Part shown: piece by piece, positions 1,998-47,267 of the stretch
Layout of the letters: the number at the start of each line of letters is the position of its first letter
Numbering within the stretch: position 1 is the first letter of the stretch
DNA from: Thraustochytrium sp. TN22
Lineage: Eukaryota; Sar; Bigyra; Thraustochytrida; Thraustochytriidae
Direction of reading: 5' to 3'
DNA: 64,000 nucleotides
NCBI GenBank assembly: GCA_013306675.1
Contig: JABLUY010000027.1
Span: 142,166-206,165, forward strand
Position numbers and translations under genes: made by a program
The notes under the pieces: generated by a model
Told to the model about the DNA's origin: nothing
What the model saw: the letters and a program-made list of their open reading frames with translations, nothing else
Databases searched by the model: none

Positions 1998-4677
1998 TCA
2001 GACTCTGCATGTGTCCAAACCAGGCTCGGCCTGGAGCAGCGCGACGAGCTCGTTGAGGACATTCTTGCGCCTGTCGTGGTCAACCTTGACGAGTTGCGCG
2101 CGAACGCTCGCGGCGAGCGCGCGCGCAAGGCCGGCGTCGCTCTCATCGGTGTTCGACCTCGCACTGTTCTCCACCTCTACGTCCTCCTCCGCCTGGGCCT
2201 CCTTCGCCTCGTCTTGCGCGCTGCGAGCAGGTCGCGCTCGAAAGTAGCTTTCGATCTTGCCGGGGCCCTTGCTGCTGGTGCCCTTGGCGCCGTTGCTCTT
2301 GATGTTGGCCACGCTATCCGGAGCAGCGGCCGACCGCGGTGGCGCGAGCTGCTCGTGGCGCGCGAAGAAGGCCGTCAGCGCGACGGCGGTGAGATCCACG
2401 GGCTGCGCTGCCTGCACACTCTTTCGCATCCACTTGGGGAGGTGAGCCTGCACGTTGGGGCGCTCGAAGCGAGCGTCAAGAAAGATAACAGCGCCGTGGT
2501 CATTCTTGTGGCGAATGACGCGGCCCGCAGCCTGGTTGAGCGCGCGGTACGCCTGCTGTGCGTACCAGTCGGCGCCGGAGAGCGCGACCGTGGCGCCGGC
2601 CGTGCGCTGCTGGTCCTGAAACTCGCGCTGCAGCTGGACCGCGAGCTCGCGGGCATTGGGGTATGGGATGCCGCACATGAAGACGGCGCGCGCCGCGGCG
2701 TCAGAGAAGTTGATGCCCTCGCTGAGCTTGCCGCGAAAGACGCCAAAGAAGAGCGCGCCGCGTCCCGCCGCAATTGCCGCCCGGTACTCGTTCATCTGGG
2801 CGTCGAAGCCGGCGCCGGCGCCGGCGCCGGCGCCGACGCCGCCCTCATCGTCGTCGTTCGCGTTGGCCGCGGCACCGCCGCCGCCCTCCACGAAGAGACC
2901 CGGCTTGGCCTGCTGCAGTTGGGCCCAAGTCGGCGAGGCGCGCCACCGCTCCAGACAGGCGCGCATGAAGGAGTACGACGGGAAGAAGCACAAGGCGCCG
3001 CCCGGCACGGCCGCGGCCAGGCGCGCGAGAGCGCAGCCGAGCGCGTCCTGGTACTCGGGCCTGGACTTGTTGGCGAAGACGCCCTCGAGGCGCACGAGGC
3101 CTGCGCCGGCGCCCGGCGCCAGGGCCTGCGGCATGACGCCGGCCCAAAGCTGCTTGCGCACGTCGATTACGTGCGGCGCCTCCAGCGTGAAGCGAAACTC
3201 GGTGCCGAGCTCGCTCGCGAAGGACGAGAGCGGCGCGAGCGTGCCGCTCGTGAGCACCACTGAGTGACACGCGCGCGCCAGCGGCTGGAAAGCGGCCGCC
3301 GCGTTCAGGCACCAAAAGCACAGCTGCGGCCCACCAGTCCCAGGCCCGCCACGGCTGCTCCCCTCGCGAACCACGACGCGGTAGTCCGCGGCGAACTCGC
3401 GGCTGTCGGCCAACATGAAGCCGAGCGCACCGAGCAAGCTGTCCAGGACGCCGCGGCTCAGCGGCGGCAGCGGCGGCGGCGCCTCGCCGGCCTCGCGGCC
3501 GGGCGCCGCAGCGCCCGTCTCCGCCTTGAGCGCCTCCGCAAAGAGCTTGCGCACCGTGTCGAGGGCGTCCTCGTCCAGGTCGCAGCGGAACTCGAGCTCG
3601 CGCAGCGCGTCGGTGCCGGAAATTGCGCGCGGGCGCCCGCGACCTGCCTCGAGATGCGTGCGCGCCCAGCGCGCCAGCTTTTGTACAAAGTCCGCCAGCA
3701 GTGAGAAGCTGGCCTGCTGGTCCAGCGCGCCGTGCGCGGCGAGCTCCTCGAGCTCGGAGCGCACCTGGTCGAGCGTGGCCAGCGCGACCTCGGCCGAGGC
3801 GGCGCTGCGGCAGGTGTCTGCGATATTGTGCGCCTCGTCGATCACCACGACGGCGCCGCGCAGGTCAATGTTCATGGCCTCGCGCGCCGCCGGGTCCACC
3901 AGGTAGTTGTACGGACAGAAGATCAGGTCGCTGCTGGCGGCGTCCGCGAGCTCGCGACTGCCGAAGTAAGGGCAGCACCGCATGCGCTGGCCGGTCTGCA
4001 CCAGGTCCTCGATGTCCCACACGGGCTCCTTGAGCGCCGCGCGCAGCCGCGAGCCCGAGCTCGGCTTGAAGTAGCCGCAACCTGGGCCCTGCGCCGAGAG
4101 CAGCCGCCGGCACTCCTCGTTGCGCGCCGCGCCGCCGGCGAACCGTCGCTGTCGCGTCACTTTGCCGTTCACGCAGTACTGCCTGCGGGACCCGAGGATG
4201 GTCATGCGTACGTCGCGCGTCAAGGCCTCGGGGCACTGTCGCAGCTCCGCCACGAGCTGCGCCAGCTGGCTGTGCGTGCGCGACGCGATGAAGACGCGCG
4301 TGCGCTTCGTCGCCCTGGCGAAGCCCTCCTCGCCGGCGCCCCGCTCCATCTCGCCGGCCCCTTGGAAGATGCGCAGCGACGCCGGGAGGAGGGCCGCCTT
4401 GCGCTCACGCCGCGCCGCGTCGCCGTGCACCGGGCAATCCTCGCTGATGGCCGCAGTGCGCTTCTTGCTCGCGCTGACGGCCGGCGCCTGGGGCCGCGGC
4501 GCCGGCGGCGTGTTGTGGTCAAAGTCCTCGTCGTCCGAGGCCCCGAGGCAGAAGTCGGGCGGCGTCGTCCGCCGACGCGCCGGCTGCGTCTGGCTCACGT
4601 CCGCGAAGTACTTGCTGCTGGGCGGGCTCTCTTGGGCAACCGTGGCGGCAGGGCACGTGCAATCCTCCTTGACCGGA

Positions 4678-7166: not shown

Positions 7167-8480
7167 TTAGTCGTCCTTGTTGCCCCCAGCAAAGCTGAGG
7201 AAACCGTTCTGGCCCCGAACATCGAGTGTCTGGGACTCGGGATGGATGCCAGTGCCGCGGACAAAGATGGCAGAGTCCTCCTTGGCGACGTAGTTGAGGG
7301 CGCGCAGCTCTTGGCTGCCCATATCGAGCTTGCGCAGCTCGAGGTTGCGACGGTAGCGACCGTAAAGGACAAAGCCGAGGACGAAGGAGAACAGGATGGT
7401 GACGTACGTGGCGGCGAGCACCGCGTCCATGCTAGCGCGCCACTCCTTGTCGGTGGAGATGACGGTGGAGCTGACCAGGCTCATGAGGCAGAGGAGCAAG
7501 ATGTTGGAGACAAAGGTGGCGATGGTGAGTTTCTCGAGCAGCACCACGTAGGGCACGGCCGGGAGCTCGCTCTGCACGACGTACTGGAAGGCGACGCTGG
7601 CGAGGATGAGCGTCATGAGCAGACCTTGACGCTCGGCGAACTGGTCGACGTCCAGCGCGAAGCAAGTGAGCGCCGTGACGGCCAGGAGCACACTGAGCAG
7701 CGCAATGCGCCAGATGTAGCCCTCGTAGCGCCGCACGAGCTGGAAGCGGATGACGAGCTGGCCGTACTGATAGGCATCCTCGTCGTCCTCCTCGCCCGGG
7801 TCCGAGCGCGCGGCGAACTCAATGACGACTCGGCGTGCCCGGAACTGCGGGATGGCGCTGAAGGCGCGGTTGAGGATAACGAGCTTGCCTGGCGTCGGCT
7901 CGCCGTCCTGCACGACCGGGACGTCCTTGGATGCATTCTCGTCGATGCGGAAGGCCGCGCGCGGCGGGACGTACATGGTCCGCTTCACGGACATGTCGTA
8001 GAATGGCGTGTCCATGGTGACCGTGAGCTCCTGCACGTCGAACGGGAAACTCCACAGCTCGAAGCGCTCCATGCAAGTCAGGTAGACGAGCGGTCGCATG
8101 CAGTTGTACACCTTGCCGTCTTCCTCAATGAGCTTGTACTTGGTGCCGTCCTGGTGGTCACGAATCTCGCGCGTCTCGCTCTTGGCATTCGGGAACTCAA
8201 AATTCGGCACGAAGTCCGGTAGGTACGTCGTCTTGTCGCGCCGGTACCGGCGCACGTCGTCCTCGGAGGCGAGCCACGACATCTCCAGGCCCATGGCCAC
8301 ATCGAAGGTCTGTTGCACCGTGTCCACGGCCGCCAGGTACCGCACGTACACGAGGTCGATGTGCACCTTGTCCTGGCAGTCCTCCCAAAGCTTGATGAAC
8401 TTTTGCGACGGGTTATACACGCGCCTCACCGTGCCGTCGGCGTCCATGGCCACGGACACCTGCGCCTTGGGGGTCGTCAT
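7167..8480 (-). CDS. Pentameric ligand-gated ion channel, Pro-loop type
   Basis: 437 residues, single exon. The first half matches the ligand-binding domain of Cys-loop receptors (VHIDLVYVRYLAAVDTVQQT, then the loop WSFPFDVQELTV). Four membrane segments follow: M1 near IWRIALLSVLLAVTALTCFA, M2 in GLLMTLILASVAFQYVVQ, M3 in LTIATFVSNILLLCLMSLV, and a C-terminal M4 ending in LGFVLYGRYRR. The FPFD core is kept, but neither loop cysteine is at its usual spacing, as in prokaryotic GLIC/ELIC relatives. No signal peptide is visible ahead of the binding domain, which is odd for a protein whose N-terminus should be extracellular. The start is the first ATG in frame; an unseen upstream exon could supply a signal sequence. 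Ligand and ion selectivity cannot be told from sequence. Confidence 0.88.
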   Translation of the reverse strand: MTTPKAQVSVAMDADGTVRRVYNPSQKFIKLWEDCQDKVHIDLVYVRYLAAVDTVQQTFDVAMGLEMSWLASEDDVRRYRRDKTTYLPDFVPNFEFPNAKSETREIRDHQDGTKYKLIEEDGKVYNCMRPLVYLTCMERFELWSFPFDVQELTVTMDTPFYDMSVKRTMYVPPRAAFRIDENASKDVPVVQDGEPTPGKLVILNRAFSAIPQFRARRVVIEFAARSDPGEEDDEDAYQYGQLVIRFQLVRRYEGYIWRIALLSVLLAVTALTCFALDVDQFAERQGLLMTLILASVAFQYVVQSELPAVPYVVLLEKLTIATFVSNILLLCLMSLVSSTVISTDKEWRASMDAVLAATYVTILFSFVLGFVLYGRYRRNLELRKLDMGSQELRALNYVAKEDSAIFVRGTGIHPESQTLDVRGQNGFLSFAGGNKDD

Positions 8481-9150
8481 GCTGCGAGACGTTGAGCCCT
8501 CGCGCCTCGGCCGGCGACCAGCGAGCCCTGCGCGCCGCGCGGAGGCGTCTGCGCGGGCGGCGGTCGCGCGCGGCGCCACGCCAACCGCAGCCGCGCTCCT
8601 CGCTGTCAGTGCTCGGTCTGCGAGCGCAGCCCGGCAGCCGCTGGTGCCAGGGCGCCGTGTGCAAGGTCGCGAGGCGAGGCGTCCCGCAACAGTGCGGCGC
8701 TCACTGGCAGGAAGGACAGGCTCTACCAAGGGCAGCGTCCGACAGACTCGCAGAAGGTGGGTACCGGTCGCTTGTGCCAGGCCCTGCTGCTAGCCTACCA
8801 TGGCTAGCATTGGCTACTAGAGCAGCAACGAGCTAGCGAACTAGTGCACCAAGGCAGGCAGGGCCGAGCAAAGCAAGCGAGCATGAGGCGAAAGCAAGGC
8901 AACACGCAAGGCGAAGCAAAGCTAGGCGAAGGAAGGCAAAGCAAGGCAAGAAAAGGCAACAGCCGAGTTGAGCGAGGTGTGCGCCCCTGGCAGCGCCGCA
9001 AGCCGCCGCAAGTGCAAGCCCTGGTACTGGTACTAGGCCTACTTAGGCCCTACTAGTACTAGGCGCGGCGCTGATGGTGTGTGAGCTGTGATGATGATGA
9101 TGGTGACCATGACTGGCTGGTGTGCGAACTCAGAGGCTCGGCTCCCTTGG

Positions 9151-11296: not shown

Positions 11297-11502
11297 CGAG
11301 ACAGAACAGACTCGACCCAAGTCGTCGAGACCCGGTCGAGTCGAGTCTCGGGCCGAGTCGGCTCGGCTCGAAGCTGCACTCGCGCGTCCGGCGCACGCGC
11401 TGCGCTGCGCTGCGTTGCGCGGGGCGGCAGTGCGGCCGGCAGAGTCGAAATATCGTCTGAGCGCGCCGCGACGGGCGGGCGCGCGGAGGGGTGGCGGACA
11501 GG

Positions 11503-14500
11503 ATGGAGGCGCCGGCGAGCGCGCTGCAGGAGGGCACGCGCGTGTGGCTGGCGGGCAACAGGGACACCTGGGTGCTGCACGAGATTACGACACGCGTGGG
11601 CGATGTGGTGAAGCTGCGGCCGGCCGAGGGCGGCGGCAAGACGCACACGGTGGAGCTGTCGCATGAGACGCGCAAGCGCATGTTCGTGGCGAACCCGCGC
11701 GTGGAGCCGGACATGACCAATCTGAAGCACTTTCACCTGCCGGGCATCTTGCACAACCTCAAGGAGCGCGCGCAGGCGGACGAGCCGTACACGTTCATGA
11801 GCCAGGGCGTGCTGGTCGCCATGAACCCGCTGCGGGAGGTGGCGGACCCGGAGGGCATCTTGGGCGAGCCGTCGGCGGTGAACGTGCCGCACCCGTACGC
11901 GATCGCGGAGTCGGCGTACCAGCAGCTGGCGTTCAACCTGCGGCGCACGGACGAGGACTCGGAGACGCCGGTGGACCAGTCCATCATCATCGGCGGCGAG
12001 AGCGGCGCGGGCAAGACGACGAGCGCCAAGATGGTGCTCAAGCACCTGGCCTCGCGCAGCACGGCCGCCAGCAAGCGGGATGCGGACCTCGACGAGCGGC
12101 TGCTGGAGAGCAACCCGATCCTCGAGGCCTTTGGCAACTCGGTGACCTCGCGCAACCACAACTCGTCGCGCTTCGGCAAGTTCATGAAGCTGCACTTTGC
12201 CGAGTCGCAGTCGTCGAGCAAGAAGAAGAAGAAGCGCCGCCAGGGCGGCGAGCTTAGCATCTTCGGCGCCAGCGTCGACACGTACCTGCTGGAGCGCTCG
12301 CGCGTCACGCACCACGTGCACGGCGAGCGCTCGTACCACGTCTTCTACCAGCTTGTGCACGGCGCCGACGCCGGGATGCGGTCCCGCCTCTCTCTTGGCG
12401 ACGACCCGTCGAGCTTCGAGTACCTGGTCTCGCAGGAGCCCTCGCTGGGCCACGGCGGTGGCGGCGGCGGCGGCGGCGGCAAGCGCGCGCTCGCCAAGCT
12501 CACGGGCGGCAAGGCCGGCAAGAAGCAGCAGCCGCATGCGGCGCGCAACGCGCACATGCCGACGCCGGACTCGGACGCGGCGCACTTCGCAGAGCTGGTG
12601 CGCGCGCTGGAGCTCATCATGGGCGCGGCCGGCGGCAGCGAGGAGGAGGAGGACCCGGACCAGGAGGACGACGGCGGCGGCGTGGAGGGCATCTTCGGCG
12701 TGGTGGCGGCCGTCCTGCACCTGGGCAACGTCCGGTTTGTGGATGAGGACAGCGCGGGCGGCAACGCGGCGGCCGTGGCGGACGCGGAGCCGCTGGAGCG
12801 CGCCGCGTCCCTCCTCGGCGTGCCGGCGGACGACCTGCTGCGCACCTTCACGGACGTCTCGGTGCAGACGGTGGGCGAGCGCATTGTCAAGCAGCGCGAC
12901 GCGCGCGGCGCCAAGTTCGCGACGGACGCCGTGGCCAAGACCATCTACGTGGGCCTCTTCCAGCACCTGGTGCAGCGCATCACCATGTCCCTGAGCGCGC
13001 GCGGCGACATGACGGACCTCCCGTTCATTGGTGTGCTGGACATCTTCGGGTTCGAGAGCTTCGAGGTGAACGACTTCGAGCAGCTGCTCATCAACTACAC
13101 GAACGAGGCGCTGCAGAGCTGCTTCAACGCGCAGATCTTCCAGGCCGAGGCGGCACTCTTCGAGCGCGAGGGCCTCCTCGTGGCGGAGGGCGAGCGCGAG
13201 CCGCCGGCCGACAACCACGAGTGCATGGCGCTGCTGGAGGGCGGCGAGGGCTGCGTGGGCATTCTGCCGTGCATCGACGCCGAGGCGCGCGCGCCGGGCG
13301 CCGACGATGAGCGGTTGAACGCCACCTTCCACCGCGAGTTCCGCGCGCACCCGCGGTTCGCCAAGGTGCACCCCAAAGACGCGCGCAGCTGCTTTACGGT
13401 GCGGCACTACGCGGGCGAAATCAAGTACACGGTGGGTTCCTTTTTGAGCAAGAACTCGGACGACGTGCCTGCGGAAGTGGGCGAGGTGCTGGGCGCGAGC
13501 GCCAGCACCCTGGTCCGCGCTGTCTTTGCGGCGTCGCTCGAAGACGGCCGGCAGCGCAAGAAGAAGAAGAAGGCCGGCGGCGGCAGCAAGAAGAAGAAGA
13601 ACGCGACGCGGTCCGTGACGGGCAAGTTTCAACGGCAGATGAAGTCGCTCATCCAGGAGCTCAACTCGACGCGGTGCTCCTTTGTGCGGTGCGTCAAGCC
13701 CAATGCCAGCATGCAGCGCGACGAGGTGGGCGGTGGCCGCGGCGCGGCGCGCGGCGCCATGGACTGGCTCGACAACACCTACATCATCCCACAGCTGCTC
13801 AACCTGAGTGTGCCGCAGACGGCCGAGGTGCTCAAGGGCGGCCTGCCGACGCGCGTGGACTTTGCCGTCTTTCACGAGACGTACGCGCAGATGCTACCGC
13901 GCGATGCCCTGGACATGTGGGAGGACATGGCGGCCGGCGACCCGCGGCGGTTCGTGGAGGGCCTCTTTTACGCCTACGGCATCGACCGCGACTCCTTCAA
14001 GATCGGCCGCACCAAGGTCTTCTTCAAGGCCGGCATGCTGGACCGCGTGCACGCCGTGCTGCAGGGCGCCGTCTCGGGCCGCGGCCTGGACGACGAGGTC
14101 ATCGAGCGCTTCAAAGAGAGCTTCTCCCGCGCGCGCTGGCGGCGCATCCGCGTCAAGCTGCGCATGCTGGGCCTCCTGCAGCTCGCGCTGCTGGACGCGC
14201 GCGACAAGCGCGTGCGCGCGGCGCGCCAGCGCGAGGAGGCCGAGAAGCAGCGTCGCGAGATGGAGCTCAAGCTGGAGCTGCGCCGCGAGCGGGAGGCCCG
14301 CATCGCCGAGCTGCTCAAGGCCACCACGGACGACATCGCGGAGCTCAAGCGCGTGCTGGCGGCCCTCGAGCACGAGCTGCGAGGCGCCGAGACGCCCGAG
14401 GAGCGCGAGCAGCTCGAGGAGAAGATCGACCGCGTGCGCGCGCAGATCGCCGACGCCGACCTCAAGGCCAGACGCATGTCGCTCTCCGTGAGCCGCTCGC

Positions 14501-16080
14501 GCCGTGCCGACTCGCTCGCGCGCCGCAGCGCGCGCTTCTCGGTGGCGCGCGGCGCCGCGGGCCGCCGCGGTGGCGGCGGCGGTGGCGGCAGCCGCGCCGC
14601 CCGCCTGTCCGCCCGCCTTTCCATGGACTCGCGCCGCGGCTCGCTCGCGAGCCGCGCCTCGGTGCGCCGCGGCTTCCGCAAGTCTGTGGCGCGTGACTTC
14701 CAGCCGCCCCCGGAGGACGAGAGCGACCCGCCCATGGTGGTGCCCGACGGCGTGGACATTTGCCTCACGCCGCCCCGAAAGGCTTCCGCCGTCTCCCGCC
14801 TGCTTTGTATGGCCTCGCGCACCCGCAACCCGAGCTCCGACCCGACCGCCCAGACCGACGACAACCACTGGGACCCGTGCCGCCTGACCATGATCGGCTA
14901 CCAGGTGCGCATCTTCCCGCCGCCCGGCCCGGAGGAGGCGCGCGTCTTGGAGCACTGGCGCGGCGAGGGCGTACCTAGCAGGACCTACCAAATCACCGAC
15001 AAGTCCACCATCAAGGCCGACGAGACGGCCATGGACGGCAACGCCTATATCATCGGCAAGAAGTACATGGGCTTCGACTACTTTGGCGTACCGCGCGAGA
15101 TGGTGCGCGAGGTCTTCCGCGTCCGCTTCGCCGACGATGGCTACCTGCGCGAGTTTGAAAGCCGCTTCCAGGCCGCCATGGAGGCCTACGTCAAGGAGCG
15201 CGCCAGCGCGCAAGTCTTCCAGCACGGCCTCATCTTGCGGCACGACGGCAAGCCCGACATGGAGAAGACCCAGACCGTTCGTGAGCTCGCCCAGCTCGCA
15301 CGCGCCGGCGTCATCACCCAGGAGGAGTACGAGATGGGCCTCTTTCTGCAAATGTCCACGCAGGACGAGCACCTGCACCGCTTCGTCGCCGTGTGCGGCG
15401 AGGACGCCTACCAGGACTACAAGATCCAGTGTCCCAAGTGCGGCGAGTTCCTCTTCAACCTGCCTGAGGACCCTCTCGAAGAGTGCCCCGAGTGCGGCTA
15501 CGACGAGCTCGACACGCCGCGGGACCTCGAGATGGAGGCCGCCGAGGCGCGCGAGCGCGAGGCCCAGGCCCGCAATGCGCGCTTCAACGAGGACACTATT
15601 CACGAGCAGGAGGACTACCCCTTTTCCATCATCGGTAAGGCCGGCGAGCAAATCATCGTCGAGCACCCCACCACGTCCACGCACATGGACCCCAAGACCT
15701 ACGAGCGCCGCACGATCTTCAACGTGCAGTGGGTGCGCCGCTTCAAGGGCGAGAACGACTGGGAGCGCTTTGTCATGTCGCACACCTGGGCCGAGTACCG
15801 CGACTTCTTTAACGCCGCCCTGCCCAACCTCCCCTCCGCGGATATCACCCGCCACCTCGAGTTCCCCACCCTCGAGCCCGAGGATGAATCCAGCGAGGAC
15901 CTCTGCGAGGACCTCTCCATGTTCCTCATCACCTTCTTTCAAACCCTCAACGAGAGCCCGGATCTCCTGGCCATCCCCGAGATCAAGGGCTTCATGGGCT
16001 ATCGCAAGCACGAGGCCACCGTCCAGAGCGTGCGTCAGGCCCTGGCCGCCGCTGCCGCCGAGGACGAGTTCGTCGACTAA
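11503..16080 (+). CDS. Myosin with C-terminal zinc-ribbon and PX-like tail
   Basis: 1525 residues, one exon; the in-frame GTG at 11491 is not the likely start. It is an actin motor with P-loop GESGAGKT near 165, switch I SRNHNSSRFGKF near 215, switch II DIFGFE near 513, actin-binding STRCSFVRCVKPN near 725 and converter GRTKVFFKAGMLDRVH near 835. The TEDS-rule residue, 16 before DAVAK, is glutamate, so the head should not need phosphorylation. Lys- and Gly-rich insertions lie after switch I and in the upper 50-kDa region. After a basic neck and a charged helical segment (about 905-990) comes a Ser/Arg-rich linker. The tail begins near 1119, then has a SHOCT-like helix pair (AQLARAGVITQEEYEMGLFL), a four-cysteine zinc knuckle (CPKCG and CPECG, about 1309-1332), and a region resembling a PX lipid-binding fold (about 1370-1470). 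The class is uncertain. The tail suggests membrane cargo. Confidence 0.92.
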   Translation: MEAPASALQEGTRVWLAGNRDTWVLHEITTRVGDVVKLRPAEGGGKTHTVELSHETRKRMFVANPRVEPDMTNLKHFHLPGILHNLKERAQADEPYTFMSQGVLVAMNPLREVADPEGILGEPSAVNVPHPYAIAESAYQQLAFNLRRTDEDSETPVDQSIIIGGESGAGKTTSAKMVLKHLASRSTAASKRDADLDERLLESNPILEAFGNSVTSRNHNSSRFGKFMKLHFAESQSSSKKKKKRRQGGELSIFGASVDTYLLERSRVTHHVHGERSYHVFYQLVHGADAGMRSRLSLGDDPSSFEYLVSQEPSLGHGGGGGGGGGKRALAKLTGGKAGKKQQPHAARNAHMPTPDSDAAHFAELVRALELIMGAAGGSEEEEDPDQEDDGGGVEGIFGVVAAVLHLGNVRFVDEDSAGGNAAAVADAEPLERAASLLGVPADDLLRTFTDVSVQTVGERIVKQRDARGAKFATDAVAKTIYVGLFQHLVQRITMSLSARGDMTDLPFIGVLDIFGFESFEVNDFEQLLINYTNEALQSCFNAQIFQAEAALFEREGLLVAEGEREPPADNHECMALLEGGEGCVGILPCIDAEARAPGADDERLNATFHREFRAHPRFAKVHPKDARSCFTVRHYAGEIKYTVGSFLSKNSDDVPAEVGEVLGASASTLVRAVFAASLEDGRQRKKKKKAGGGSKKKKNATRSVTGKFQRQMKSLIQELNSTRCSFVRCVKPNASMQRDEVGGGRGAARGAMDWLDNTYIIPQLLNLSVPQTAEVLKGGLPTRVDFAVFHETYAQMLPRDALDMWEDMAAGDPRRFVEGLFYAYGIDRDSFKIGRTKVFFKAGMLDRVHAVLQGAVSGRGLDDEVIERFKESFSRARWRRIRVKLRMLGLLQLALLDARDKRVRAARQREEAEKQRREMELKLELRREREARIAELLKATTDDIAELKRVLAALEHELRGAETPEEREQLEEKIDRVRAQIADADLKARRMSLSVSRSRRADSLARRSARFSVARGAAGRRGGGGGGGSRAARLSARLSMDSRRGSLASRASVRRGFRKSVARDFQPPPEDESDPPMVVPDGVDICLTPPRKASAVSRLLCMASRTRNPSSDPTAQTDDNHWDPCRLTMIGYQVRIFPPPGPEEARVLEHWRGEGVPSRTYQITDKSTIKADETAMDGNAYIIGKKYMGFDYFGVPREMVREVFRVRFADDGYLREFESRFQAAMEAYVKERASAQVFQHGLILRHDGKPDMEKTQTVRELAQLARAGVITQEEYEMGLFLQMSTQDEHLHRFVAVCGEDAYQDYKIQCPKCGEFLFNLPEDPLEECPECGYDELDTPRDLEMEAAEAREREAQARNARFNEDTIHEQEDYPFSIIGKAGEQIIVEHPTTSTHMDPKTYERRTIFNVQWVRRFKGENDWERFVMSHTWAEYRDFFNAALPNLPSADITRHLEFPTLEPEDESSEDLCEDLSMFLITFFQTLNESPDLLAIPEIKGFMGYRKHEATVQSVRQALAAAAAEDEFVD

Positions 16081-20873: not shown

Positions 20874-21547
20874 CTCTTGCTTTGCTGGGCTGTCGCTCTC
20901 GCTGCCTGGGTTTCGTGTTTGCCGCGCGCGCGTTGTGCCGCCGCGGGGCGCGCCGCGTTTGAACCCAAGTTTGTTTCTCCGGGTGGGGGCGCCCCTGCCC
21001 CCTGCGCCGCCAGAGGGCGGCAGGGGGGGAACCGCGACAGAACGCCCCGGGCCTGGTTTCGCCGAGGGGGCCGGTGCGCCGTGTGGGCGCCGTCCGCCGC
21101 GGAGGTGGCCTGGGCGAACGGCGCCACCGCAAGCAGAACGACCCGGACTCAGGCTGCAGTGGCAGCGCGGCGCAGCGGCCGGGCGGCGCGCGGGGCGGCC
21201 CGGGGTCAGACGCCGGCTGCGTGCGTGGTCTGCGCTGCTTTGGATGCGCTGCGCTGGAACGAGCGAGCGAGCGAGCGACGGCCGCGTCGCCCAAGGGGCT
21301 CGCTGGCGGTTGCGCTGCTGGCTGGCTGGCTGGATTTTTCTGCACTTGTTTTCGAGGCGAGGCGAGGCCGTGAGCTCGCCCGTGGCGGGGCGTGCCTGGG
21401 CGCGCCTGGGCGGCCCGGGCCGCGTGCCAGGAAGGTGCACGTGACGGACTCGGTCGACGGGCTTTGCGCTTACAATTTCTTCCCACTTTTTAGAAGCGCT
21501 CTGGCGTGGCCTGCCCCTACGTGGCTTGGCGCGTACGTGGGGAGAGT

Positions 21548-22153
21548 TCGCTCGCGCAGTGGGCCGCGCTCGGGCCAGGCCCGGGCTGGCGCTGCGAAAC
21601 TTCCCTCTCTCTCATGTCAAGCAACTGCAAGGCACATCGGAATCTTACTTGCATTCGTGTGTGGTTGCATGATACAGAGTACTCGCAGAGGTCGCAATTC
21701 CTTGATGGCTTGAGCTTGTGCGAATCGCTTCGCTTCGCTTCAGATCATTGTTGGCGGCCTGCGGCGGCCATCCTCCTCGTCCTTGTCCTCCTCGTCCTTC
21801 GCGGGCCGCCATCCTCCTCGTTCTCGTCCTCCTCGATTTCGCTCGCGCGCTGGGCCGCGCTCGGGCCGCGCTCGAGCCAGGCCCGGGCTGGCGCTGCGAA
21901 ACTTCCCTCTCTCTCTTTCTCTCTCACATGTCAAGCAAATGCATGGCACATCGGAATCTTACTTGCATTCGTGTGGGGTCGCATGGGCTAGGATACAGAG
22001 TACTCGCAGAGGTCGCATTTCCTTGACGACTTGTGCTTGTGCGAATCGCTTCGCTTCGCTTCAGATCATTGTTGGCGGCCAGCGGCGGCCATCCTCCTCA
22101 ACCTCGTCCTTCGCTGGCCGCCATCCTCCTCGTCCTCGTCCTCCTCGTCCTTC
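21548..22153. repeat. Tandem duplication, two copies of about 300 bp
   Basis: Copy 1 spans about 21548-21840 and copy 2 about 21841-22153, offset 314-321 bp. Both hold GGGCTGGCGCTGCGAAACTT, CACATCGGAATCTTACTTGC, ACAGAGTACTCGCAGAGGTC and CGCTTCGCTTCAGATCATTG in the same order, with scattered substitutions and small indels. Each ends in CTCCTCGTC-rich sequence. Copy 2 abuts the stop codon of the PP2C-kinase gene, so the pair probably lies in its 3' flank. No coding potential is recognised. Confidence 0.9.
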
Positions 22154-22155
22154 TC

Positions 22156-25100
22156 TCAAAAGTTCTCGAACCAGACGCCAGGGGCAGCCTCGGCGGAGCC
22201 CGAGTCGATGGTCTCGCCGCGCGGGGTGGGCGTTGCGAGAATGTCGTGCAGAGCAGCCTGTGCGGCGTCGCGCAGAGGCGAGGGCGTTGTGCCCGCGCGG
22301 ATGGCGTCAAAGTCGACGCCGGAGAAGAAGGGGTGGCGGCGCGTGTCGTCGAGGTTGGCAAGACGTTTGGCCGGCTGCGGCTGGAGCAGGTCGTGCACGA
22401 AATCGCGCGTGGCCTGCGAGAGGGACTTGGGCAGCTGGAGCGAGTCGGGGTCAAAAGAGGTGATCTGCGAGAAGAGGTCGGACTCGTTGAAGGGCAGAGA
22501 GGCGGTGAGCATCTCGTAGGTGAGGATGCCAAGCGCCCAAAAGTCAACCTCGAGACCGTGGCCGGCGTTGAGGACCTGCTCGGGCGCGACGTAGCCCGGG
22601 TCGCCGCACATGGTGAAGGTGCGGATGGTGGTGTCCTCGAGGTACTTTCCGCAGCCAAGGTCGGCGAGGCTGACGTAGCCGTCCTCGTTAAGCATGAGCG
22701 TCTGCGGGTTGACGGAGCGCGCGAGGATGCTGTGCTCGTGCAGGCGCTCCAGGATGATGACGATGTTGGCGGCCACGAAACGCACAACGTCCTCGCTGAG
22801 CGGCTCGGACATGAAGTCATGGAGCGGGCCGCAAATGACGCCGGCCAGCGCGACGTGGAGGGCGTCGCGGCCGACGAAGGTCTTGAGCACCGGGTAGACG
22901 GGCGCATACGCGGACACCGCGTTCGCCTCGGCCTTGGCGGCCTCGTGGTGCGCGACGCCAAGCGCAGCAGCGGCCTTGGCGGAGGAGTTGCTGGGCGTGC
23001 GCAGCAGGGCGCTCTTGCTGTTGGCGCGGGAGATCTCGGCGACGAGCGCCGGAAGCTCGGGCACCGAGGCGATAGGCAGGAGCGCGCGGTCGCGGAGCGG
23101 CATGCTCTCGACCTTGGCGGCCTCGATGGGCGCGCGCAAGAAGGATTTGAGCGTGCAGGGCGGAGCGGCGCCATTGAGGTGCACGATGCGGTAGACGGTG
23201 GTCTCACTGGTGTGCACGAGCGCCTTGGGCGTGACGTCCTCGAGCGGCGTGGCGAAGTCGATGCCGAGGGCGGCGCAGCGCGACGGCATCTCGGAGGCGG
23301 CGAGGCTCTCGAGCTCTCGCTTGCGGCCGTGGCGCGCAATGATGGTGGAGAGCGGCCCAAGGACCTGCTCGAAGGAGCGCTTGCTGATGTAGAAGCAGGT
23401 GGTCTTGCCGACCGCCAGGACGCTGGCGGCGCGCGGCTCGGCGTTGAGGAGCGCGCGCTCGCCAAAGTAGCCGCCGGCGCGCAGGCGCATGACCTCTTTG
23501 CCAACGGCCGGGTCGAAGTCGGCGTCGTCCTCGGGGGCGCCAATGAGGCAGCGCACCTCGCCGTCGCGCACGATGTACATGGTGTCGCCCACGTCGCCCT
23601 GGCGGATGATGGTGTCGCCGTCGTGGTAGGTGACCTCGGAGACCTGGTCCGCGAGGCGCTGGAGCTGGCCCTTGCCGAGGGACTCGAGAATCTTGACGCT
23701 GCGCAGCACAGTGATGAGCTCCTTGTTGGGGCGCTTGATGAGCACGCGCCGAAAGGTCTTGCGGCCAAGCGCCCAGAGATGGCCGTCAGTCTTGGCGACG
23801 ACCGAGGCGGCGCGCGGCTTGGAATACATGAGCGCGAGCTCGCCAAAGGAAGGGTTGCCGACGTTGCCATCGCGCGCCACGTAGGTGTGGACCTTGTGGA
23901 CCTCGTCGCTGCCGTCCTGGCGCAGAAAGCAGTCGTAGTCGCCGGAGCCGACGACGTAAAAGTTGTCGCCGTGCTCGCCCTGCTCGATGATGGTCTCGCC
24001 AGCCTTGACGTCCTTATGCTCAAAGGCGGCCAGCACCTCCTCGAGCTGCATCGGGTTGAGGTGCTGGAAGAGAAAGTTGGTGGCGATGGCGGACTTGATG
24101 GCATCGAGCTCCTCGGCAGACTTGCGCGCGGGCGCGCCGGCGCCGGCGTCGGCGCCCTCCTCGTCCTCGGCGGCCTCGTCCTCCTCCTCGATGACGGCCG
24201 AAGCCTCGATGAGCGCGCGCTTGACGCGCGACATCTCGCGGCGTACGGGACGGTTCTGCTTCTCCATGGCGAGCAGCGCATCGTAGTTGCGGAAGGAGCC
24301 CGTCATGCGCAGGTCGTCCAAGCGCGGTGACGGCGTGCCGGAGAGAACGGCGCCGGCATCGACCTCGTCGGCGCGCGCCGACCCGACCGCGCTGCCGCCC
24401 TCGTGGTCCGTGAAGATGACGATGGCGGTGATGTCGTCGGTGCGCACCTCGTAGTGCAGCCAGAGCTTGTACGACTCGGTGACGAGCGCACGCGCCGCCT
24501 CGTACGGGTCGGTGAACTTGGTGACCATGTCCACAACGGTCTGCGAAGAGAGGAACTCAAAGACGCCATCGCTCGCGATGACCACGAAGCGGTCGCGCGG
24601 CAGCACGCGGCGGCGCAGCACCTCTGGGTTGGGCACGCAGCCGATGGACTCGGCCATCTCGTCGCCCAGGCTGCGCGTGAAGGCCACGCCCGGGCAGCCC
24701 TTGTTGGGCAGCCAAAGCCGCGGCGGGTCCCCGCCGTCATCCTCCTCCTCGCCCCAATCCTGCGCGTTTGGGTCGTACGGCTTGAAGCCCTCCAGCTGGT
24801 CCATGGTCATGACCACGGCGCCTGCTGACTTGCAGCGCTCGCGCTCATCCGCGCGATACGGCGTCTGGTCCGCGCTCAGCGGCTGCGCCACGATGCGGCC
24901 GCCACCCATGTCGGTGGCCAGGACAGCGCGCGAGTCGCCCACATTTGCCACGACGAGCTCGTCGCCCACGAAGAGCACCGAGATGCACGTGGTACCGGCG
25001 AGTGTGTCGTCAAAGTACGTGGGGCCCTTGCGCTTGCGCTTCTGCTTGTGCATCTCCTTGTTCACCTTGACCAGGGACTCCTCGAAGGCTGTCTCGGGCC

Positions 25101-25578
25101 CGTCGCGCAGCTGCGGGTGGCCCACCATGTACTTGCAGAATTTGTCCACGGCGAAGGTGCTGCACTCCGTGCCGTAGCGCCCGTGGCCGTCGAAGACACC
25201 GAACAGGCTCAGCTCGGGGTGGTCCGGCCCGAGGTCTGGTGCAACCAGCAAATTATCCTGGTTCTTCTTGCTCAGGTCCTCCGGGTAGAAGCCGCTCTGG
25301 CACACCCAGCCATAGCGCAGCTTCATGATGTGCTCGCCTGCCTTGCTCGCCAGCTTGCGCGACTGCGCGCCCTCCGACGATCGTGTGCGCCCGGACACCT
25401 CCAGCCTGCTGATGGCCAGGAACTTCTCGTCCTGCGTCAGGCCATCCTCCACGTCCGGCTCGGGCGCTGTGCACTTATCCAGCGTCTCCGGGATGAGCGC
25501 CGTCGCCAGATCCTCCGCGCTCGTCTTGGCCGCCTTGAGCTTCGACACCGGGATGGGCTCTGTGCGCTGCGCGTCCAT
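22156..25578 (-). CDS. PP2C phosphatase, two cyclic-nucleotide domains and (pseudo)kinase fusion
   Basis: 1140 residues, one exon; first in-frame ATG at 25578. Order: PP2C phosphatase about 85-395 (GVFDGHGRYG, VANVGDSRAVL, IASDGVFEFL and RTDDITAIVIF carry the metal-binding aspartates); CNB-A about 493-610 with phosphate-binding cassette FGELALMYSKPRAASV; CNB-B about 612-735 with FGERALLNAEPRAASV; AGC-like kinase about 766-1082. The same PP2C-CNB-CNB-kinase order is known in plant cGMP-dependent kinases. Both cassettes keep the ligand-contacting arginine. In the kinase, the VAIK lysine (TLKSF), DLG and APE (YVAPEQ) are present. The catalytic loop, however, reads LARSVNPQTLML instead of HRDLKPEN, so aspartate, lysine and asparagine are all replaced. 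I predict an active phosphatase gated by cAMP or cGMP, with a kinase-like domain that does not transfer phosphate. Confidence 0.9.
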   Translation of the reverse strand: MDAQRTEPIPVSKLKAAKTSAEDLATALIPETLDKCTAPEPDVEDGLTQDEKFLAISRLEVSGRTRSSEGAQSRKLASKAGEHIMKLRYGWVCQSGFYPEDLSKKNQDNLLVAPDLGPDHPELSLFGVFDGHGRYGTECSTFAVDKFCKYMVGHPQLRDGPETAFEESLVKVNKEMHKQKRKRKGPTYFDDTLAGTTCISVLFVGDELVVANVGDSRAVLATDMGGGRIVAQPLSADQTPYRADERERCKSAGAVVMTMDQLEGFKPYDPNAQDWGEEEDDGGDPPRLWLPNKGCPGVAFTRSLGDEMAESIGCVPNPEVLRRRVLPRDRFVVIASDGVFEFLSSQTVVDMVTKFTDPYEAARALVTESYKLWLHYEVRTDDITAIVIFTDHEGGSAVGSARADEVDAGAVLSGTPSPRLDDLRMTGSFRNYDALLAMEKQNRPVRREMSRVKRALIEASAVIEEEDEAAEDEEGADAGAGAPARKSAEELDAIKSAIATNFLFQHLNPMQLEEVLAAFEHKDVKAGETIIEQGEHGDNFYVVGSGDYDCFLRQDGSDEVHKVHTYVARDGNVGNPSFGELALMYSKPRAASVVAKTDGHLWALGRKTFRRVLIKRPNKELITVLRSVKILESLGKGQLQRLADQVSEVTYHDGDTIIRQGDVGDTMYIVRDGEVRCLIGAPEDDADFDPAVGKEVMRLRAGGYFGERALLNAEPRAASVLAVGKTTCFYISKRSFEQVLGPLSTIIARHGRKRELESLAASEMPSRCAALGIDFATPLEDVTPKALVHTSETTVYRIVHLNGAAPPCTLKSFLRAPIEAAKVESMPLRDRALLPIASVPELPALVAEISRANSKSALLRTPSNSSAKAAAALGVAHHEAAKAEANAVSAYAPVYPVLKTFVGRDALHVALAGVICGPLHDFMSEPLSEDVVRFVAANIVIILERLHEHSILARSVNPQTLMLNEDGYVSLADLGCGKYLEDTTIRTFTMCGDPGYVAPEQVLNAGHGLEVDFWALGILTYEMLTASLPFNESDLFSQITSFDPDSLQLPKSLSQATRDFVHDLLQPQPAKRLANLDDTRRHPFFSGVDFDAIRAGTTPSPLRDAAQAALHDILATPTPRGETIDSGSAEAAPGVWFENF

Positions 25579-30633: not shown

Positions 30634-31377
30634 GCGCCGCGCCGCCGCCCGCCGCGCGCGCGCCCGCCCCGCTCGCCCGCTCGCGCGCGCGCGCCGCTCC
30701 CGCGCGCAGCTCCGAGTTCTGCCGCAGCGCCACTGGCGCGGGGGCCTCGCCGTTTTATACGCCCTTCCGGACGCCGCCCGTGTTTCAAACGCCGCCGCGA
30801 CCGAGCCGGCCGGCTGGGGACCCCGTCCGCCGCCCGCACCCCCACCTTAGTCCTTCGCGCCGGCTTGGGGCGCCCGGCGGGGGGGGCACGGTGCACGTGA
30901 AGGGCCCGAGCGCATTTTGAGCATGGATGCGGATGCGAAAGCAAATTCAAAAGCGCGCCGCGGGGGCTCGGGCGACGGAGGCAGGCGGGCGGCAGGCCGC
31001 GCGGCGCGCCCCGCTCACCTGGCCCGGCGCGGTGGCCGCGGCTGCCGGTCCGCAGCGTGGATCGCTTCGAAGGGCGCGGCACGCTCGGATCTGCGTTGAC
31101 CTGCGTGCGTGCGTGCTCAACGACGACTGTTAGAGAGGAGCGCCCGCGCGGCGGCCGTGCAGCGGCGACGGCGGCGGCGGCGGCAGACCGACCGCTCGCT
31201 CGCTCGCGCGCGCGCGAGACGGCAGACGCGCCGTAGCACGCTGGTCCACGTCCTCCTGCCCCCTGCGCAGGTCGCCTGGGCTGGGCTGGGCTAGGCTAGG
31301 CTAGGCTAGGCGGACTCGGGCTGGGCTCGGCCGGCCGGCCGGCCTGGGAAGGAGCGCGCTCGCTCGGCCGCGACACT
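30634..31377. other. Divergent promoter region, REX4 and VPS10 genes
   Basis: No gene is recognised. It holds a GGTGCACGTGA word with an E-box core at 30890-30900 (also seen near 21434), a run of CGGCGG units near 31165, and GGGCT/GGCTA tandem units at 31280-31311 followed by GGCC repeats. These last lie 30-100 bp before the VPS10 start codon. Confidence 0.5.
31278..31311. repeat. GGGCT/AGGCT pentamer run before VPS10 gene
   Basis: Three to four GGGCT units pass into four AGGCT units, ending 66 bp before the start codon. It belongs to the set of pentamer or tetramer repeats found just upstream of many starts in this window. Confidence 0.8.
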
Positions 31378-34281
31378 ATGCAGCCCGTCGCGGCGTGCGT
31401 CGTGGCGACGCTGGCGCTGCTGGTGATGGTGCAGCTCTTCGCCGCAGCGGATGCGCAGCTGTTGAGCCAGGGGACCACCAGCAGCACCAGCAGCAAGGGC
31501 GAAGTCGGCGACCCTGGCCGCATTGTGCAGTACACGTACGAGCTGGGCGGCGAGGTGGACGATATGCGGTGGCTCGGGGAAGACAAGAATGCGGTGCTGG
31601 TGCTGACGAGCAGCATGCAGGTGCATCGCAGCGCAGACGGCGGACTGAGCTTCCAGGATCTGGGCCCGGAGCTGTCACGCGCCAGCGCCGAGCAGCCGGT
31701 GGCCGCCGAGGACTTGCGCATCCGGCGGCTCGTGCAGCACCCAAGCCGGCCCGAGATCGTCGTGCTCTTGTCGGAGGGCGTGGTGCAGTACTACTCGTCG
31801 AACTCGGGTGCGAACTTTAAGGCGTTCCGCACACCAGCGCCCGTGGCGGACTTCAGCCTGCACCCGCGCATGGAGGCGCTCATGATGGTGACGGCGTACT
31901 CGGCCAAGTGCAAGATGTACCCGGGCAGCGGCACTCCGAGCAGCCCAAACCAGGCAGACGATGGCAAGGACGCCAGCGGCAACGCGGCGTGCTACAAGGC
32001 GCTCTACGTCACAACGAACCACGGGTCGAGCTTCCAGCTGCTGCGCAAGTATGTGGTGCAGGCGGAGTGGCACGAGCGGCTGCTGGCGAGCGAGCAGGGC
32101 AGCGTGACGTCGTGGACCTCGGGCGAGGCGCCGCGCAGTGCCGACGAGGCCGGCTGGCACCTGCGCGGCGCGGACGCCGGGCCGCGCCGCGACACACGAA
32201 CCATCCTGTGCACGGCGCTGCCGCTGGAGCACCGCGGCGACCAGCGCTTCGGGGTCTGGGACGCCGAGGTGAGCCTGGTAGAGAGCGAGGACCTATTCAA
32301 GTCGGAGCGCACGCTCGTGGACGGTGGCAACAAGTTCATCTTTACCAAGCACTTTGTCTTCGTGGCACAAATGGCCACGCGCGGCAGCTCAGAGGTCCGC
32401 CTGCAGCTCAGCACGGACCGCGGCGAGACCTTCCACCCGTCGCGCATGCCCTTCCAGATCACGCAGCACAGCTTCACGGTGCTGGACTCGAGCTCCGGCG
32501 TCGTCTTCCTGCACGTCGACCACGTCGGCGGCGACCACTCCAAGTACGGCCACGTCTACGTGAGCGACAGCACCGGGGCCAACTACTCGTTCTCGCTGCG
32601 CGACAACGTGCGCGCCTCCAACGGCAAGTGCGACTTTGAGCGCGTGCTCAGCCTTGAGGGCGTCTACGTGGCCAACTTCGTGCACAATGTGCAGGAGCTC
32701 GAGAGCTACGCGGCCATGCGCGGGGACCTCGACGAGGACCCAGCCGCGGCGCGCGCGGCAGCCTCCAAGCTGCGCCAGCCGGCGGCCGAGCTGCGCACCG
32801 TGGTGTCCATGGACCGCGGCGGCGAGTGGAGTCTGTTGCGCCCGCCCGCCACCGACGTCTATGGACGGCCCATCCGCTGCGCCGCCGCTGACTGTGGTCT
32901 GCACCTGCACGGCCACTCGACGCACTTTGCGCCGGTGTACAGCTCGCCGTCCGCCGTCGGCCTCATCCTCGGCGTCGGCAACGTCGGCTCGCATCTGTCG
33001 ATGCGCGCCGGCGAGGTCTCCACCTACCTGTCGGCCGACGGCGGCCTCACGTGGGCCGAGGTGCGCCGCGGCTCGCACATTTACGAGATCGGCGCGCACG
33101 GCGGCCTCATTCTCATGGCGCGCGACGATGAGGCCACCACCTCGCTCGTGTACTCATGGACGCACGGCCGCGAGTGGACGGAGATCCAGTTCTCCAAGGA
33201 GCCCATCGACGTGGAGAACATCATCGTGGAGCCCACGGCCGTGGGCCGCGTCTTCCACATCTTTGGGTCGGCCCCGGACCGCGACGACGCCGGCGTCCTC
33301 ATCACGCTCGACTTTTCCGGATTGCACGAGCGGGAGTGCACGGGCGCGTCCATGCCGCAGAACCCATCGAGCGACTACGAGCTGTGGAGCCCGCGCGACT
33401 CGGCCGCACAGGGTTTCGATGCCGCCGCGTCCTGTCACCTGGGCCGCGAGGTCGCCTACGTGCGCCGCAAGGGCGACGCCGCCTGCTTCACGCCCATCGA
33501 CTTTGAGGCGCGCCGCTTCGTGCGCAACTGCGCCTGCTCGGCGCGCGACTACGAGTGCGACTTTGGCTTCCGCCGCTCCATCGCGCATGGCCCATGCGTG
33601 CGCGACCCGGCTGTCTCCAACGCCACGCTCGCGCCGCCCACGGAGTGCCCGGCCGCCGGCTTCTACACCGTCAGCAACGGCTACCGCCTCGTCGGCGGCA
33701 ACTCGTGCGAGGGCGGCAAGAACCTCAACCCGACCGTTTTCACCTGCAGCCGCGGCCTGCTCGGCGTCAGTGGCCATGGCTGGCTCGTCATCCTGGTCAT
33801 TCTCTGCATCGCCGCGCTCACGCTCTACCTCAACAAGCGCAAGCAGTCCGGCCCGCTCGACCCCTTTGGCACGCAGCACTTTGGCGGCGACGACGTCAAG
33901 TCCTGCTGGGACTTTGCGCGCGACTTTGTGCGCGCGCGCGGCTCCCCCTCGCAGCTCTACCGCTACGCGCGCATGCGCTCGCCCTCCAACTCCATGAACT
34001 TCACTGACCCGGACTTTGGCGCCGACGGCCCCGACGGCCCGGAGGACCCGGACGACCTTGACTCCAGCAGCTTCCAGGCGCGCAGCTTTGTCGACGACGA
34101 GGACGACGAGGCCTTTCACGCCAAGGAGGCCGAGCTCATCTCCACTGTTGTCGATGCCAAGCCGCTGCGCCATCGCGCCTCCAACCCGGCCGCCTCCGTC
34201 CCTGTTCTTCGGGCGCCGCCTACCGCGGCTCCCATTGATGTCTTGGGCGACTCGAGCGATGACATTGGTGACGCGATCTAA
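31378..34281 (+). CDS. VPS10/sortilin-family sorting receptor
   Basis: 967 residues, one exon. It is a type I membrane receptor that moves cargo between Golgi and endosomes. The signal peptide spans about 1-26 (ATLALLVMVQLFAAADA). A ten-bladed VPS10 propeller follows with Asp-box-like turns (RSADGGLSFQDLG, STDRGETFHPS, SMDRGGEWSLL, SADGGLTWAE, SWTHGREWTE). A cysteine-rich 10CC module spans about 660-790 (RECTGASMP, SCHLGREVAYVRRKGDAAC, FVRNCACSARDYECDFGF). One transmembrane helix lies at about 800-820 (LVILVILCIAALTLYL). The cytosolic tail of about 145 residues is acidic and ends GDSSDDIGDAI. The single VPS10 domain resembles sortilin rather than the double-domain yeast Vps10. With the GRIP golgin and V-ATPase F genes it makes three endomembrane genes in the window, though they are not adjacent. 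Confidence 0.93.
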   Translation: MQPVAACVVATLALLVMVQLFAAADAQLLSQGTTSSTSSKGEVGDPGRIVQYTYELGGEVDDMRWLGEDKNAVLVLTSSMQVHRSADGGLSFQDLGPELSRASAEQPVAAEDLRIRRLVQHPSRPEIVVLLSEGVVQYYSSNSGANFKAFRTPAPVADFSLHPRMEALMMVTAYSAKCKMYPGSGTPSSPNQADDGKDASGNAACYKALYVTTNHGSSFQLLRKYVVQAEWHERLLASEQGSVTSWTSGEAPRSADEAGWHLRGADAGPRRDTRTILCTALPLEHRGDQRFGVWDAEVSLVESEDLFKSERTLVDGGNKFIFTKHFVFVAQMATRGSSEVRLQLSTDRGETFHPSRMPFQITQHSFTVLDSSSGVVFLHVDHVGGDHSKYGHVYVSDSTGANYSFSLRDNVRASNGKCDFERVLSLEGVYVANFVHNVQELESYAAMRGDLDEDPAAARAAASKLRQPAAELRTVVSMDRGGEWSLLRPPATDVYGRPIRCAAADCGLHLHGHSTHFAPVYSSPSAVGLILGVGNVGSHLSMRAGEVSTYLSADGGLTWAEVRRGSHIYEIGAHGGLILMARDDEATTSLVYSWTHGREWTEIQFSKEPIDVENIIVEPTAVGRVFHIFGSAPDRDDAGVLITLDFSGLHERECTGASMPQNPSSDYELWSPRDSAAQGFDAAASCHLGREVAYVRRKGDAACFTPIDFEARRFVRNCACSARDYECDFGFRRSIAHGPCVRDPAVSNATLAPPTECPAAGFYTVSNGYRLVGGNSCEGGKNLNPTVFTCSRGLLGVSGHGWLVILVILCIAALTLYLNKRKQSGPLDPFGTQHFGGDDVKSCWDFARDFVRARGSPSQLYRYARMRSPSNSMNFTDPDFGADGPDGPEDPDDLDSSSFQARSFVDDEDDEAFHAKEAELISTVVDAKPLRHRASNPAASVPVLRAPPTAAPIDVLGDSSDDIGDAI

Positions 34282-46597: not shown

Positions 46598-46598
<1 letters not shown>

Positions 46599-46629
<31 letters not shown>

Positions 46630-46632
46630 CCG
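46599..46632. repeat. (TGCC)n tetranucleotide microsatellite
   Basis: Eight CTGC/TGCC units. Similar GGCA/TGCC tracts occur at 27941, 50156 and 62277. Confidence 0.9.
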
Positions 46633-47267
46633 GCCTGCGGGAGCAGGAAGCCCTGCACCTTGCACGCGCGGAAGCGCGGCGGCCGCACCGCACCGGCAGG
46701 CTGGCAGCCAACACCTGCAGCCCGCCAGCCTCTCAACAGGCAGGAGCGCTTGTGCATCGATCGCCCCGCTCATCCCTCCGCCCGCCAGCGCCGGCGCCCA
46801 GGCGCGGCGAGACGCGCGCGCGCGCCGCAGACCGCGCCGCCGGCCGCTCCGCGCCCCGCCCCCGCGTCGATCGAGCGGCGCTCGCCGCGCCGCGCCGCGC
46901 CGCGCCGCGCGGCAGCGCGAGTGGCGGCGGCGCGTGCTCGCGCTGTCCATTCGCCTGCTTGAGCCCTAGCTCGCCAGCGACGAGCGAGACCGGCACGCGG
47001 CCGGCAGGCTCGCGCGCGCCCGCGGGCGCGGCAGACGAGATCGGGCGGTCGATCGCGCACCGCGCGGTGCGGTGCGCGGGCGAGCGAGCGAGCGAGCGAG
47101 CGAGCGAGCGGCGGGCGAGCGGGCGAGGTCGCCGCCGGCGAAGCGCGCGCGGGCGCGCGATGCGCGCGCGGGCAAACGCGCCCCAGGCCGCCACGCTGCC
47201 AGTGACGCGGCTTGTGCACAACAAACGCCGCGGCGACCGCGACGGCGACCGCGCGGCGGCGCGGAGA

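Follow-up and report, generated by a model that had tools for sequence, protein, structure and literature searches.

The kinase domains of a PP2C-CNB-CNB-kinase fusion from Thraustochytrium sp. TN22 and of its examined relatives lack the catalytic aspartate

The window, by which we mean the whole analysed stretch of 64,000 nucleotides, comes from the 37.9-Mb genome of Thraustochytrium sp. TN22 (G000, contig C199). Its minus strand contains an uninterrupted PP2C-CNB-CNB-kinase frame of 1140 codons plus stop, with the coding part at 22159–25578, the Met at 25578 and the stop codon at 22156–22158. The nearest relative of the encoded protein is from Hondaea, a thraustochytrid (74% identity over 100% of the length), and the start of the protein agrees with that of Hondaea, MDNRDEPIPVAKL. 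Pfam recognizes a PP2C phosphatase domain, two cyclic-nucleotide-binding (CNB) stretches and a protein kinase domain, in that order on one chain. Nothing scored above the NCBIfam cut-off, and ARAGORN and Rfam gave no matches over the window. The features of the gene are as follows.

22156..25578, minus strand: whole PP2C-CNB-CNB-kinase gene (kinase part a predicted pseudokinase); open frame, 1140 amino acids plus stop, no intron needed
24409..25308, minus strand: PP2C phosphatase domain, residues 91-390, limits approximate (Pfam PF00481, E 2.4e-33 at 104-369)
24226..24252, minus strand: conserved basic-Ser motif RPVRREMSR, residues 443-451, before CNB-A
23734..24138, minus strand: CNB-A, residues 481-615, limits approximate (Pfam PF00027)
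23329..23733, minus strand: CNB-B, residues 616-750, limits approximate (Pfam PF00027 at 649-740)
22864..23244, minus strand: N-lobe of the predicted pseudokinase, residues 779-905, limits approximate; Lys811 kept, glycine loop absent, conservation poor
22279..22863, minus strand: C-lobe of the predicted pseudokinase, residues 906-1100, limits approximate (Pfam PF00069 at 899-1085)
22696..22725, minus strand: degenerate catalytic loop LARSVNPQTL, residues 952-961
22654..22662, minus strand: DLG, the DFG equivalent, with its Asp kept, residues 973-975
22612..22614, minus strand: Thr989, equivalent of the activation-loop Thr
22579..22587, minus strand: APE, kept, residues 998-1000

An imperfect tandem duplication of about 310 bases lies just 3' of the gene stop (window 21544–22147), with main repeat pairs that are 84–98% identical. 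Elsewhere in the window we found open frames for a myosin head (11461–16077, plus strand, E 8e-149), a Sortilin/Vps10 domain protein (31300–34278, plus strand) and a class C GPCR-like seven-transmembrane protein (46410–49532, plus strand, 7tm_3 E 7.3e-30). The region 7170–8789 (minus strand) weakly resembles the ligand-binding domain of neurotransmitter-gated channels, with a match that stays below the cut-off (E 9e-4).

The phosphatase domain contains all six PP2C metal-binding acids (D108, D130, D215, D306, D337 and D382), and its closest solved match is PPM1K. Both CNB cassettes are intact as well, with Glu580 and Arg589 in FGELALMYSKPRAAS of CNB-A and Glu707 and Arg716 in FGERALLNAEPRAAS of CNB-B. 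CNB sites that select cGMP have Thr or Ser after the cassette Arg. Here that position is Ala in both domains (Ala590 and Ala717), and the best solved match of CNB-A is PKA RII (3j4q), with PKG close behind. Because Ala follows both cassette Args, the predicted ligand is probably cAMP more than cGMP, a preference to be held loosely since PKG nearly equals PKA RII as a match to CNB-A. Domain stretches of cyclases (21 matches) and phosphodiesterases (14 matches) are encoded in the same genome.

The kinase region is readily recognized (Pfam Pkinase E 2.5e-27, with the HRD Asp absent), and its C-lobe matches solved PKG1 with an E value of 7.9e-32. An original prediction, made from the sequence, was that the catalytic loop reads LARSVNPQTL, with Ser in place of the catalytic Asp and with the following Lys and Asn changed, while the VAIK Lys, DLG and APE remain. 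Each of these points was borne out. The minus strand reads ATC CTC GCG CGC TCC GTC AAC CCG at the loop, and TCC (Ser955) occupies 22714–22716. In phmmer alignments, ILARSVNPQTLMLNEDGYVSLADLGCGK aligns without gaps with two solved PKG chains, PKG1 (6bdl) and another PKG (5dyk), placing Ser955 opposite the catalytic Asp, Asn957 opposite the Lys and Thr960 opposite the Asn. Retained residues include Lys811 (the VAIK Lys, in CTLKSF), D973 of DLG (973–975), E1000 of APE (998–1000), the HRD Arg and the activation-loop Thr. The losses extend beyond the loop: the GxGxxG glycine motif is absent, the hinge Glu is replaced by Ala912, and the GGE motif reads CGP.

Two trivial explanations were considered and rejected. 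A sequencing or frame error is unlikely because the loop, ILARSINPQTLML, is also carried by Hondaea (P0002) and by a transcriptome protein (P0003). Misalignment of the loop is countered by the gapless match to solved PKG and by the canonical CNB kinases of the same genome, which fall on identical columns. Judged by its sequence, the window protein is a pseudokinase in the sense of a kinase fold that lacks at least one of the VAIK Lys, HRD Asp and DFG Asp, and its kinase domain very probably has no ordinary phosphotransfer activity.

To place the gene among its relatives, we ran three protein searches against a database clustered at 90% identity and took all 114 matches from one search, the best 120 of 483 from another and the best 120 of 199 from the third, which gave 261 distinct relatives. 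Before counting we removed P0113 and P0114, in which the kinase domain is missing, and P0115, a CNB kinase from Polarella that carries the Asp but no PP2C. The alignment comprised 260 rows, including the window protein and a second copy from its genome. Named rows come from land plants, green algae, haptophytes, oomycetes, a thraustochytrid, bolidophytes (Triparma) and other stramenopiles.

The catalytic Asp was found in none of the 252 rows with a letter at its position, which holds Gly in 143, Asn in 51, Ser in 23, Ala in 18, Thr in 6, Arg and Met in 3 each, Leu in 2, and Cys, Lys and Gln in 1 each. The Lys two positions after the HRD motif is likewise absent (0/250), and 32 of 250 rows retain the metal-binding Asn. 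Other elements persist: the HRD Arg in 251 of 252 rows, the DFG Asp in 227 of 250, and the VAIK Lys together with the DFG Asp in 163 of 252. The activation-loop position is Thr in 217 of 251 rows, Asp in 30 and Ser in 2. GxGxxG occurs in 2 of 252 family rows, compared to 7 of 8 canonical CNB kinases, and of the 239 rows that cover the six PP2C metal acids, 238 have Asp at every one. One caveat here is that the 252 rows include P0104, which has no kinase domain by Pfam and contributes stray letters at the loop, as well as some fragments. For this reason we added a strict count, requiring letters at the six PP2C acids and at four CNB and four kinase positions. The 226 rows retained have no Asp, no Lys, Asn in 29, the HRD Arg in 225, the DFG Asp in 205 of 225, the VAIK Lys with the DFG Asp in 152 and all six PP2C acids in 225; no conclusion was altered.

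Loss of the Asp is therefore not particular to the window gene, an idea that we reject. The loops that lack it are of several types, mostly YRG in plants, YRN in haptophytes (Diacronema, Calcidiscus), YRG or YRS in green algae, and YRN, SRT and others in oomycetes. No Asp-bearing counter-example appeared among the 120 of 199 matches listed with the deep-branching P0098 as query. Thus, aligning plant and protist homologues at the HRD position, the check proposed with the original prediction, turned up no Asp in any row, fragmentary or four-domain. The prediction of a cyclic-nucleotide-regulated phosphatase carrying a pseudokinase holds insofar as the protein is a predicted CNB-containing phosphatase with a predicted pseudokinase. 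What fails is its implied contrast with relatives that are phosphatase-kinase pairs, as plants, haptophytes, oomycetes, green algae and the second copy all lack the Asp. In seven oomycete proteins (P0203, P0204, P0206 and P0208–P0211), Asp replaces the catalytic-loop Lys (R[STM]xDPTN), and the DFG Asp is Asn or Gly.

We asked whether the kinase domain has lost its catalytic features in particular or has diverged generally. Eighteen columns are invariant in 8 canonical CNB kinases, yet in them no single residue accounts for as much as half of the 40 family rows. Ten of these, by their PKA names, are the pair of glycines in the glycine loop, the Glu of the hinge, all three positions of GGE, the Asp, Lys and Asn, and the Thr that precedes APE. 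The remaining 8 are mainly hydrophobic, and in most of them the canonical residue is still the commonest. Between pairs of canonical CNB kinases (21 pairs), identity is 0.388 in the N-lobe and 0.425 in the C-lobe; between family pairs (780), these values are 0.188 and 0.336. When family pairs are restricted to the canonical C-lobe range (167 pairs), C-lobe identity is 0.40 and N-lobe identity only 0.22. At an 85% threshold, the N-lobe has 0 conserved columns in the family versus 15 in the controls and the C-lobe 20 versus 53, in a comparison that sets 40 diverse family rows against 8 controls and is hence unmatched. Between the window protein and that of Hondaea, identities are 81% in the C-lobe, 84% in CNB-A, 80% in CNB-B and 55% in the N-lobe. 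These sequence comparisons indicate that constraint has been lifted from the nucleotide-binding lobe, whereas the C-lobe has retained more, along with part of the switch machinery. We do not count the C-terminal AGC hydrophobic motif as a kept feature, its pattern being found in 57 of 188 rows.

In a tree of the CNB-CNB-kinase region, with motif columns excluded and 40 family rows sampled, all 40 lie on one side of a branch separating them from 8 canonical rows (SH-aLRT 100). The same split was recovered against 6 canonical rows after removal of two long rows (bootstrap/SH-aLRT 100/99). The window protein groups within the family and not with ordinary CNB kinases. Because the sampled family forms one such clade, the simplest account of the missing Asp and Lys would be a single ancient loss before the sampled lineages parted. 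The Asp is ancestral to kinases, and the direction of change depends on that. The loci that we fetched from this genome include 16 distinct kinase loci that do not belong to the family but resemble it in the C-lobe (BLASTP E up to 1e-8). All 16 keep both Asp and Lys, a count that covers the fetched loci and not every kinase of the genome.

The genome contains a second gene of the family, at G000:C79:80324-83698 (825–4199 of locus L059, plus strand), which encodes 1117 amino acids. It has the loop SRGVSPEG (SRG type), again without the catalytic Asp, and groups in the tree with P0044, away from the window gene. Its N-terminus is MGCSAS. An N-terminal MGC is present in 136 of 195 rows and absent from the window protein and its nearest relatives. 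A further 1349-aa open frame, at G000:C427:78803-82852 (304–4353 of locus L060, plus strand), has the order CNB-CNB-kinase-PP2C, with a strong PP2C match. Like the window gene, it joins CNBs, kinase and PP2C in one chain, but the domain order is opposite and the kinase motifs are intact (GRGTFG, HRDIKPAN, DFG). Its sequence makes it a possible candidate for a true kinase-phosphatase pair.

The cyclic-nucleotide sites show a different pattern across the family. Among the first 195 rows, Glu and Arg are present in both cassettes in 109 of the 127 rows outside the plant-like loop type, the window protein included. In the 68 plant-like rows, a class defined by the kinase-loop pattern whose named examples are land plants, the Arg is lost from CNB-A in 65 and from CNB-B in all 68. 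With a wider RG.S-type pattern applied to all 260 rows, both sites are kept in 8 of 117. The basic motif preceding CNB-A is also well conserved, R446 being found in 190 of 195 rows and S450 in 178 of the 188 rows with a letter there. By analogy of position, RPVRREMSR presumably sits where PKA-R and PKG carry their inhibitory segment. In phmmer it was not aligned to the PKA-R inhibitor segment, so that a pseudosubstrate role is a guess.

Members of this family have been studied in plants. Arabidopsis PP2C19 (At2g20050) has the same domains, and the accessible passages of PMC11775391 describe its PP2C domain as necessary and sufficient in hypocotyl phototropism. There, versions lacking the kinase or the kinase plus both CNBs rescue, as do D923N and T937A, and a PP2C point mutant fails. 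Numbered by the Cardamine protein P0156, which has the same length, D923 corresponds to the Asp of DFG, with R904-G905 at the HRD site. Hence the residue called catalytic in those passages is not the HRD Asp. PP2C19 has also been treated as a phosphatase acting on phototropin targets (PMC13274637). For rice PKG, Shen 2019, as summarised in a passage of PMC11638329, reported a kinase stimulated and a phosphatase inhibited by cGMP, that is, a single-chain kinase-phosphatase switch, and an excerpt from PMC8728061 names it as the first cGMP/cAMP-dependent kinase of plants to be properly characterised. In the part of the oomycete phosphatome study available to us (PMC10925823), dual activity of STKc-containing PPM proteins was inferred from domains. 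A count for Phytophthora infestans, known to us from an extract of PMC3019232, includes two inactive AGC kinases, and these are possibly members of the PP2C-CNB-CNB-kinase family. Our search covered titles, abstract starts and passages of CC-licensed literature, with subscription papers and supplements outside its scope, and among the entries listed found no text that calls the family pseudokinases.

We propose, as the probable reading on balance, that the window gene encodes a cyclic-nucleotide-regulated PP2C phosphatase that uses a dead PKG-like module as its switch. The C-terminal PKG-like kinase domain, having no ordinary phosphotransfer chemistry, would act as a regulatory module. Binding of a cyclic nucleotide, probably cAMP, would shift the CNB-pseudokinase block against the phosphatase domain, and this movement would set phosphatase activity or substrate access, much as CNBs act on the live kinase of PKG. 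In land plants the CNB Args would have disappeared later as well, so that the phosphatase alone stayed active. We are evenly divided on the broader claim that the whole PP2C-CNB-CNB-kinase family, rice and Arabidopsis members included, is one ancient pseudokinase family, phosphatases switched by cyclic nucleotides by way of a dead PKG, whose nucleotide sites disappeared afterwards in land plants. Were it true, no live kinase of this PKG type would exist in plants, and one would have to look to another source or a new catalytic mechanism for the published kinase activity. A kinase dead across plants and protists would mean that the rice PKG switch model needs re-testing and that the protein is a phosphatase built with the regulatory parts of PKG.

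Several observations count against the regulated phosphatase. The kinase activity reported for rice PKG (Shen 2019, through the passage of PMC11638329) is one of them. Since the VAIK Lys and DFG Asp are kept together in many rows, a nucleotide could bind and weak activity is conceivable. The kinase might be active by an unusual mechanism, with another residue as base or with the Asp dispensable, making the protein a real kinase-phosphatase switch of the kind proposed for rice PKG. The rice reports (excerpts from PMC11638329 and PMC8728061) speak for this, as do the kept Lys-Asp pair (163/252), the HRD Arg (251/252) and an activation-loop Thr or Asp in 247 of 251 rows. Against it, the Asp site has no single substitute and varies among G, N, S, A, T, R, M, L, C, K and Q. 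Moreover, the Lys is gone from 250 of 250 rows, the Asn from 218 of 250 and GxGxxG from 250 of 252, N-lobe constraint is lost, and in the Arabidopsis assay, as far as the passages of PMC11775391 go, kinase deletion and D923N were silent. We consider an unusual active kinase distinctly unlikely.

Somewhat less unlikely, though still improbable, is that the kinase serves the phosphatase as a docking platform or scaffold, recruiting substrates or an active AGC kinase to it, and that cyclic nucleotides play no regulatory part. A C-lobe far better kept than the N-lobe fits this reading, as does the persistence of the domains in plant-like rows that have lost the CNB Args (65/68 and 68/68). Retention of both cassettes in 109 of 127 other rows is hard to explain on such a scheme unless something is bound. 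The C-lobe too is less conserved than in canonical kinases (20 versus 53 columns), which weighs against the regulated phosphatase. In Arabidopsis, the accessible text of PMC11775391 has the CNB-kinase half dispensable in the one response tested and gives no proof of a regulatory role. The finding that PP2C is necessary and sufficient for that response (same passages) would also fit a reading of this half as the decaying baggage of an ordinary PP2C. Such decay is very improbable, given that the C-lobe and both CNBs remain 80–84% identical between the window protein and Hondaea, though the N-lobe is only 55% identical, and that all four domains are found together again in plants, green algae, haptophytes, oomycetes and other stramenopiles. 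The regulated phosphatase is the reading we retain, and the window protein is a good test case for it, since its phosphatase and both nucleotide sites look intact whereas the plant-like members have lost the Args.

The arrangement can be set beside four known systems. In PKG (5dyk, 6bdl, 7lv3), CNBs are followed by a kinase as in the window protein, and PKG1 is the best solved match of the kinase region. The solved PKG chains differ in having no PP2C, in reading YRDLKPEN at the loop, and in the residue after the cassette Arg, which is Ala in the window protein versus the Thr of cGMP-selective sites. PKA RII resembles CNB-A of the window protein in its cassette, PRAA as in cAMP sites, but it is a separate subunit without catalytic domains, whereas the CNBs here are fused to a phosphatase and a predicted dead kinase. 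Signalling pseudokinases of the HER3 and IRAK3 type have lost the catalytic Asp, kept the fold and taken on a regulatory role, and they are not known to be fused to a phosphatase or to CNB domains. A further likeness is to the Arabidopsis PP2C19/rice PKG family, compared through Cardamine P0156: the same four domains occur in the same order, the PP2C acids are intact, and in the plant rows the HRD Asp and Lys are missing as in the window protein, mostly in the form YRG..S. The window protein differs from the plant proteins in that both CNB cassettes are intact, DLG stands in place of the usual plant DFR, the MGC start is missing, and the HRD His position holds Ala, where plants mostly have Tyr or Phe.
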